NCBI GenBank assembly: GCA_021201235.1
Contig: JAJQFI010000025.1
Location: 124,001 to 188,000, forward strand
DNA from: Oscillospiraceae bacterium
GTDB taxonomy: Bacteria; Bacillota; Clostridia; Oscillospirales; Ruminococcaceae
Reading direction: 5' to 3'
Length of the DNA: 64,000 nucleotides
The notes below the pieces were generated by a model that saw only the letters and a program-made list of their open reading frames with translations, ran no database searches and had not been told where the DNA came from. A program made the position numbers and the translations under genes. Below are positions 6,528 to 9,558 of the stretch, piece by piece; within the stretch, counting starts at the first letter, position 1; each line of letters opens with the position of its first letter.

Positions 6528-6545
6528 AAAACACGTTTAAACCCA

Positions 6546-6573
6546 ATAAAAAAGCTGTTGACAAAGCAACAGC
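6546..6573 (-). terminator. Terminator of the small hydrophobic ORF; its hairpin DNA overlaps the -35 of a plus-strand promoter
   Basis: Minus strand GCTGTTG-CTTTGT-CAACAGC-TTTTTTATT. Confidence 0.7.
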
Positions 6574-6586
6574 GATGGGGTATAAT
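6558..6586 (+). promoter_or_regulatory. SigA promoter for putative antisense RNA
   Basis: TTGACA (6558-6563), 17 bp, TATAAT (6581-6586); directed into the 3' end of the minus-strand small ORF. Confidence 0.75.
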
Positions 6587-6696
6587 AACGGTAAGAGAGC
6601 GGAGCTGCCGGTAACAGCTCCGGCTCAACTAATATGCGCTCCTGAGAAGGATGCACTAAAATTGGAATTGGTCGGGACTTTTACTCTAGCTCTCGG

Positions 6697-6789
6697 CTAT
6701 TTCTTTTTATTCCCGGAGGTTAAGCCGAGAATGCCAAGTACTATGTTCGTAATCAGATTAAGTAGTGAGAACACTTCTAAAATCGTCAT
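6697..6789 (-). CDS. Putative type I toxin, 30 aa hydrophobic peptide MTILEVFSLLNLITNIVLGILGLTSGNKKK
   Basis: Preceded by TAAGGAGGTGGTCGTT-ATG; single TM, lysine-rich C-terminus; own promoter at 6851-6879. Confidence 0.65.
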   Translation of the reverse strand: MTILEVFSLLNLITNIVLGILGLTSGNKKK

Positions 6790-6850
6790 AACGACCACCT
6801 CCTTAGTTTTATCAAAGGTCAGGCCGTTTTTTCGCTCTCTTACCGAGGTT

Positions 6851-6879
6851 GTTATAGCATATGTTTCGGACAATGTCAA
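6851..6879 (-). promoter_or_regulatory. SigA promoter of putative type I toxin 1
   Basis: Minus-strand TTGACA-N17-TATAAC. Confidence 0.75.
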
Positions 6880-7026
6880 CGAATAAATTGCTTATATCGC
6901 CAATTTGCGCCTTGTTCCACTAAAGAAGATTGTGCAAAAAATACTTTGATTTAGTCCGCATATTGTGCTATACTTGATAACTGATCAGAAAACTCTGTAT
7001 ATTTTTAGGAAAGAAGTGGGTCAAAA

Positions 7027-9191: not shown

Positions 9192-9212
9192 AAAAGCTGT
9201 TGACAAATCAAC
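9191..9212 (-). terminator. Terminator of second small hydrophobic ORF, overlapping antisense -35
   Basis: Minus strand GCTGTTGA-TTTG-TCAACAGC-TTTTTTATT. Confidence 0.72.
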
Positions 9213-9228
9213 AGCGATGGGGTATAAT
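9200..9228 (+). promoter_or_regulatory. SigA promoter for second putative antisense RNA
   Basis: TTGACA-N17-TATAAT; nearly identical to 6558-6586. Confidence 0.75.
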
Positions 9229-9234
9229 ATAAGT

Positions 9235-9340
9235 GGTGAGAGGTACCTGAAGTGGCATTCAGGCACGATTACTCTTTCCATAGCGTTAACTACAAAATTC
9301 GCAATCGCACTTGATGTTAATCAGGTGCGGTTATTTCTAA
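9235..9340 (+). ncRNA. Putative antisense RNA (type I antitoxin)
   Basis: Downstream of promoter 9200-9228; hairpin CCTGAA-gtggca-TTCAGG near 5' end; terminal hairpin CGCACTTGAT-GTTA-ATCAGGTGCG (9306-9329) followed by GTTATTTCT; overlaps the 3' end of the minus-strand ORF. Confidence 0.5.
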
Positions 9341-9420
9341 CGGCGATCGCCGAGGCTAAGACCTAAGTTGATGGAAGCTATTACAAGAAGTAAAAGCTGA
9401 AGGATATCTGCAATTTCCAT
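9337..9420 (-). CDS. Putative type I toxin, 27 aa hydrophobic peptide MEIADILQLLLLVIASINLGLSLGDRR
   Basis: SD GGGAGGTGG 7 nt before ATG; single hydrophobic helix, charged C-terminus; own promoter at 9477-9506. Confidence 0.62.
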   Translation of the reverse strand: MEIADILQLLLLVIASINLGLSLGDRR

Positions 9421-9476
9421 CGGTACTCCACCTCCCTTCTTCAGGGAAAGAGCAACCGTATCCTCCCACCGAGGAC

Positions 9477-9506
9477 ATTATAACACAGGGTGTAGCTTGC
9501 TGTCAA
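9477..9506 (-). promoter_or_regulatory. SigA promoter of putative type I toxin 2
   Basis: Minus-strand TTGACA-N18-TATAAT. Confidence 0.75.
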
Positions 9507-9529: not shown

Positions 9530-9558
9530 TTGACAAATGGGCAGCGAAGGGGTATACT
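9530..9558 (+). promoter_or_regulatory. Promoter of the rimP-nusA-infB operon
   Basis: TTGACA-N17-TATACT; flanking sequence aaaaaagctgttgacaaa...gcagcgawgggg shared with 6548 and 9191 copies. Confidence 0.8.

Follow-up and report, generated by a model that had tools for sequence, protein, structure and literature searches.

A putative chromosomal type I toxin-antitoxin module with a 5'-3' lock and a nested antisense RNA in an Oscillospiraceae bacterium

Between a clcA-like and an antiporter-like transport gene, positions 6546-6879 of the window (the whole 64,000-nucleotide stretch of DNA analysed here) hold a 30-codon open reading frame (ORF) confronted by a promoter on the opposite strand. 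This arrangement raises the question of whether the spot houses a type I toxin-antitoxin (TA) module, a small membrane protein under antisense control or a dispersed repeat. An earlier note had read it as a type I TA-like module with the convergent layout of txpA/RatA and bsrG/SR4. Based on sequence comparison, we consider it very probable that this is a chromosomal type I TA module combining a 5'-3' lock in one RNA with a second, antisense RNA, the 30-residue membrane peptide presumably being the toxin.

Anatomy and conservation of the module

The minus-strand promoter, Shine-Dalgarno (SD) sequence, ATG, 30-codon ORF and terminator named in the earlier note all lie where it had placed them (Table 1), the toxin leader measuring ~55-61 nt for a proposed ~60 nt, and the plus-strand promoter with its 8-bp hairpin is likewise present. 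Promoter match scores are 12/12 (plus) and 11/12 (minus), where ~0.35 promoters of at least 11/12 are expected per strand in the whole shuffled window. Convergent near-consensus pairs number only two in the 64 kb, and the second belongs to another module of the same design. Beyond the earlier note, we identified a perfect 13-bp inverted repeat (CGGTAAGAGAGCG, 6589-6601/6833-6845) directly after both -10 boxes, an antitoxin -35 box nested in the toxin terminator, and an antitoxin terminator spanning 6670-6708 (stem and U-tract). The best 19-residue hydropathy of the toxin peptide is 2.08.

Table 1. Predicted features of the module, in window positions
Feature	Position	Strand	Basis or remark
Toxin promoter TTGACA-N17-TATAAC	6851..6879	minus	sequence; kept in nearly all family modules
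Toxin mRNA, predicted, ~297 nt	6548..6844	minus	start estimated 7 nt after -10
Helix 1 5' strand CGGTAAGAGAGCG, at toxin RNA 5' end (inverted repeat right arm)	6833..6845	minus	
Helix 2 5' strand CGGCCTGACC, in leader	6818..6827	minus	double-sided changes in 4/10 pairs
Anti-SD segment ACCTTT, can pair with SD	6814..6819	minus	consensus hairpin in 36 leaders
Shine-Dalgarno AAGGAGGT	6797..6804	minus	sequence
30-aa toxin ORF MTILEVFSLLNLITNIVLGILGLTSGNKKK, ATG at 6789, stop at 6697	6697..6789	minus	predicted single membrane helix
Toxin terminator GCTGTTG-CTTTGT-CAACAGC-TTTTTT, stem 6573-6554 plus T-run	6548..6573	minus	sequence
Antitoxin promoter TTGACA-N17-TATAAT, -35 within toxin terminator	6558..6586	plus	sequence
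Inverted repeat left arm (toxin mRNA helix 1 3' strand and antitoxin RNA 5' end)	6589..6601	plus	
Antitoxin RNA, predicted, ~116-120 nt	6593..6712 (3' end ~6710-6712)	plus	start estimated; fold of 6591-6712
Antitoxin 5' hairpin CGGAGCTG/CAGCTCCG	6600..6607/6615..6622	plus	sequence; covariation at two stem pairs
Helix 2 3' strand	6621..6630	minus	mRNA alignment
Antitoxin middle hairpin	6635..6653	plus	AU<->UA and GC<->AU swaps in 9 sequences
Antitoxin terminator stem GGTCGGGA/TCTCGGCT	6670..6698	plus	covarying pairs, e.g. GC<->AU in 10/26
Antitoxin terminator U-tract TTTCTTTTT, antisense to toxin Lys-Lys-Lys codons	6700..6708	plus	invariant AAA-AAG-AAA
Stretch absent from exact empty site in close relatives	6528..6896		alignment with L067, L071, L073

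The second module occupies 9196-9506 of the window on the minus strand, with facing 12/12 promoters and an antitoxin -35 box held in the toxin terminator. Its SD-led ORF (9420-9337) encodes 27 residues, MEIADILQLLLLVIASINLGLSLGDRR, stopping immediately ahead of what remains of the usual AAATAACCG tail, and its arms, GGTGGGAGG/GGTGAGAGG, pair with one G.U. Adjoining it on the plus strand, a solo antitoxin-type promoter (9530-9558) overlaps a GCTG/CAGC terminator-like remnant, as if left behind by a lost copy.

Searches of the module's own 2.06-Mb genome, that of a gut-type bacterium, gave ten peptide matches at E up to 0.01, including the window copy, and a wider profile added two further places, for at least 12 copies and at least 11 relatives of the window peptide. 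The ORF, for which the earlier note had proposed a homologue search, proved to be conserved: the ten-copy profile, run on 31 sampled genomes of the genus, gave ~100 matches, which fall in 12 of them (up to 15 in a single genome), and none in the other 19. Across the family at large the peptide is rare (6/299 genomes), and the wider profile detects it in four families of the order (8/397 genomes), where module anatomy is the same. When the ten own-genome copies are aligned, similarity begins at the toxin -35 box and stops at the toxin terminator, with no terminal repeat beyond these edges. Nearly all of 106 extracted modules carry TTGACA-16/18-TATAAT on both strands, and the antitoxin -35 box lies inside the toxin terminator in own-genome modules and in most of the more distant ones. 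The leader is longer in an MTTSEV/MTLTEV subtype, measuring 132-140 nt in its three fully read copies; subtype counts vary with the profile thresholds.

Median pN/pS of the toxin ORF is 0.42 across 31 non-redundant ORFs, which were selected for the KKK ending and not for codons, and on this measure the ORF is under purifying selection. The module thus contains a short hydrophobic-peptide ORF, with a predicted membrane helix, that is conserved as coding sequence among ~100 relatives, and a predicted overlapping antisense RNA gene with its own promoter and terminator. Such selection, together with the RNA covariation described below, the confinement of similarity between promoters and terminator, and a divergence among copies far above that of a recent repeat, weighs against a MITE-like dispersed repeat in which promoters and ORF are decorative. 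We give that reading scarcely any credence, although the multicopy, intergenic distribution, the exact empty site in relatives and the broken ORFs of some family copies would each suit it.

Structures and shared sequence of the two RNAs

The repeat arm varies among modules (AGCAAGAGAG, GACAAGAAAG, GACAGAAGAG, GACATGAGGAG, AAGGGTACTG and others), and within modules the two arms are pairable at 9-11 of 11 positions in all 73 distinct arm pairs, which none of 5000 permutations of arm partners equalled. Mismatches that leave a G.U in the toxin mRNA are favoured, both overall (toxin G/antitoxin A 10 vs A/G 4) and at the arm 3' edge (T/C 20 vs C/T 2), these counts not being independent of ancestry. 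An alignment of 23 toxin mRNAs revealed two helices (13 and 10 pairs) in which 92.7% of cells are paired, compared with 34-46% in slid-helix controls. Double-sided changes occur at 12 of the 23 lock pairs (8/13 in helix 1 and 4/10 in helix 2) vs 4.8 in shuffles, with 0/500 shuffles as high, in counts that include, and are inflated by, related copies. The window mRNA fold (6550-6844) has an MFE of -98.6 kcal/mol (z -5.4) and is closed by lock helix 1. However, helices still formed in 43/80 and 58/79 refolds after the toxin mRNA 3' ends had been shuffled or exchanged among modules. The fold of one sequence is thus weak evidence by itself, and the alignment-based pair count was used in place of this crude refolding control. 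A hairpin that could mask the SD with an upstream ACCUUU is also conserved in 36 leaders, among which it shows no double changes.

The position of the inverted repeat, the same relative to both promoters, and its near identity on the two sides could also indicate a protein operator or the recombination site of an invertible segment rather than an RNA helix. A DNA-binding protein common to all modules would be expected to preserve a single sequence, and for this reason arms that differ widely between modules, yet match within each, argue against an operator; double changes at helix 1 pairs and the bias toward mismatches that are tolerated as G.U in the toxin mRNA point the same way. As a genome-wide operator, the arm motif shows no excess in the genome. 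Arm divergence and wobble bias led us to reject this reading, which we regard as highly improbable.

Turning to the facing RNA, the predicted antitoxin is complementary to the 3' part of the toxin mRNA, including its last codons. Its fold in the window (6591-6712) has an MFE of -42.9 (z -3.55), and the consensus structure comprises three hairpins with double changes at 11/22 pairs, a count that again includes related copies. Directly after the last of these hairpins comes a U-tract antisense to the terminal lysine codons of the toxin. These codons read AAA-AAG-AAA in 31/31 non-redundant ORFs, whereas third positions are variable in most of the other codons, suggesting that one stretch serves both as lysine tail and as antitoxin terminator. 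Cognate RNAs are complementary over 111-130 nt, compared with at most 22 uninterrupted nt between non-cognate modules of the same genome. Furthermore, the antitoxin 5' end has the same sequence as the toxin 5' arm: the antitoxin RNA is predicted to start inside the 3' strand of the lock, so that both RNAs share 5' sequence. The conservation of the unit in ~100 copies, purifying selection on the ORF and the covarying structures of both RNAs support the type I TA-like reading of the earlier note, as well as its comparison with the convergent txpA/RatA and bsrG/SR4 layouts.

Site history, dispersal and frame-broken copies

Comparison of relatives with the neighbouring clcA gene (metagenome assemblies under the names Oscillospiraceae bacterium or Ruminococcus sp.) reveals presence and absence of the module at an identical site. 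In L067, L071 and L073 the site is empty, the clcA stop TAA being joined to T-TCGCCAATT and reading straight into TTCGCCAATT; in the window and in L084 the module occupies the site as an insertion of ~369 bp. In the clcA tree, L084 branches outside the window and L067/L073, and hence the module was either precisely lost or gained twice. Although their clcA genes have diverged, L071 and L073 are identical over 33 nt at the empty junction, suggesting an exchange of alleles by homologous recombination. Downstream of clcA at this same site, L068, L069 and L072 possess other intergenic repeat or hairpin elements.

Clustering of flanks assigned 101 modules to 31 site groups, one large group having been merged by repeated flanks; 18 groups are common to several genomes, and at some sites the module type differs between species. 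Near-identical module pairs in opposite orientation, 0.7-2.5 kb apart, were also observed in L136, L138 and L139, with a long ORF, probably encoding an exported protein, between the paired modules of L139.

This distribution bears on whether the peptide might instead be a non-toxic small membrane protein, e.g. one that regulates a transporter or membrane stress, with its level set by the antisense RNA and an architecture that is regulatory rather than TA. A setting between two transport genes would be in keeping with such a protein; however, copies of varying sequence types, as many as 15 per genome, occur at many unrelated sites and each come with an antisense RNA of their own, the window site is empty in close relatives, and a short hydrophobic helix with a lysine tail is what known type I toxins possess (PMC6563280). 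Given that this many-site, multicopy pattern, with own antisense RNAs and empty sites, fits a type I TA module better than a dedicated regulator, we judge a non-toxic regulator to be improbable.

A 24-nt hairpin insertion, TCAAGTCAATGGCACAG[T/G]GACTTG, recurs in four modules from four species (L201, L202, L204 and L205), situated at two unrelated sites, and together with one extra base breaks their toxin frame; both promoters, the arms, the SD and the start codon are intact. Of eleven genomes searched, only these four contain the insertion, each a single time, and G014 (L172) and G000 (L018) are intact at the orthologous sites. Speculatively, and with more doubt than conviction, such copies might be selected antitoxin-only derivatives, perhaps anti-addiction RNAs against paralogous toxins that spread between sites by gene conversion.

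Known systems and a proposed working

Neither the window peptide nor the other family peptides of the genus reach the cut-off of any Pfam or NCBIfam family. For Hol_Tox (PF16935, TxpA/BsrG-like toxins; cut-off 23.3 bits) the window peptide gave no match, and the best score among relatives, 14.1 bits, came from another family of the order. A resemblance to holin-like small toxins, as claimed in the earlier note, is therefore only loosely true, with all family peptides of the genus falling below the Hol_Tox cut-off. The match to Rfam BsrG (RF01412; 21.5 bits, E 0.0039) is below the gathering threshold of 55 bits and suggestive only. PHROGs gave only weak matches, one of them a holin at E 0.07, while plasmid and phage collections yielded no DNA match, nor did viral contigs scanned with three DNA patterns. 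In the open papers searched, no type I modules were described for Oscillospiraceae, Ruminococcus or Faecalibacterium. We call the module a member of an apparently undescribed, compact family of a known kind, type I TA.

In Bacillus subtilis, bsrG/SR4 (SPbeta), bsrE/SR5 and txpA/RatA are, like the window module, convergent genes in which the antisense RNA overlaps the toxin mRNA 3' end, with a short hydrophobic toxin, a charged tail and SD sequestration (PMC6562991); a long 5'-3' helix (P1) in the toxin mRNA is a further likeness (PMC6562991; Rfam BsrG consensus; SPbeta sequence). They differ in having no significant sequence match to the window family. Convergent genes, overlapping 3' ends and a toxin mRNA 5'-3' helix, as in the bsrG/SR4-type layout, are all found in the window module, whereas an antitoxin promoter beyond the toxin terminator is not: in SPbeta the SR4 promoter lies beyond the bsrG terminator, while here the antitoxin -35 box lies inside the toxin terminator. 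From the SPbeta sequence and known transcript sizes, SR4 presumably starts ~55 nt beyond that terminator. As a consequence of this promoter placement, the bsrG/SR4 RNAs would lack shared 5' ends, unlike those of the window module. A true Hol_Tox gene in another species of the genus (MVTYEAMFLFASLVVAIVALVVDITKKK, L221:1501-1587 in G005; 27.8 bits) resembles our module in its compact layout, facing promoter and 5' sequence AAAGGCTACC shared between the facing RNAs; BLASTP of L221 against a bridging relative found nothing. Since this locus is also compact, compaction appears to be a trait of the lineage rather than of one peptide family.

More distant parallels are also informative. In aapA/IsoA of Helicobacter pylori, a 5'-3' long-distance interaction and SD-masking hairpins keep the toxin mRNA inert, and the modules are multicopy with module-specific antitoxins (PMC6733600); phylum and sequence are unrelated, and 3'-end processing is the activation step in aapA/IsoA. 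The type I modules of C. difficile (CD0956.2/RCd10 and others), likened by layout, are convergent and encode short lysine-tailed membrane toxins, with many per genome (PMC6563280). They reside mostly in prophages, whereas household genes flank the window copy and the viral scans were negative.

In the working that we infer for the module, transcription of the minus strand would yield a ~297-nt mRNA for the 30-residue membrane peptide, the putative toxin. The 5' end of this mRNA would fold back on its own 3' region via the two helices, and the leader could additionally mask the SD; together, we propose, these would leave the full-length toxin mRNA poorly translated. Experimentally, aapA mRNAs have been shown to be held closed by 5'-3' helices and SD masking (PMC6733600), and SD masking has been shown for txpA, bsrE and bsrG (PMC6562991). 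The facing promoter, nested in the toxin terminator, would give rise to a ~118-nt antisense RNA that terminates with a hairpin and a U-tract, the latter antisense to the toxin lysine codons. Pairing of this RNA with the toxin mRNA would begin in the strand holding the 5'-3' lock and involve the 3' part of the message; as the antisense 5' end repeats the toxin 5' arm, the two may compete for the same 3' strand. The resulting duplex would pass to RNase III, which is present in the genome and is required for txpA control in B. subtilis (PMC6562991).

Detecting type I TA systems by sequence is very difficult, and in Clostridia experimental knowledge of them is limited to C. difficile (PMC6563280, a 2019 review). 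The overlap of functions predicted here is extreme, with lysine codons doubling as antitoxin terminator and the toxin terminator doubling as antitoxin promoter. The family provides a natural series of ~100 covarying modules in Oscillospirales, as many as 15 of them in a single 2-Mb genome, and would allow direct tests of the lock, of the specificity of antitoxins, of paralog cross-talk, and of gain and loss at sites.
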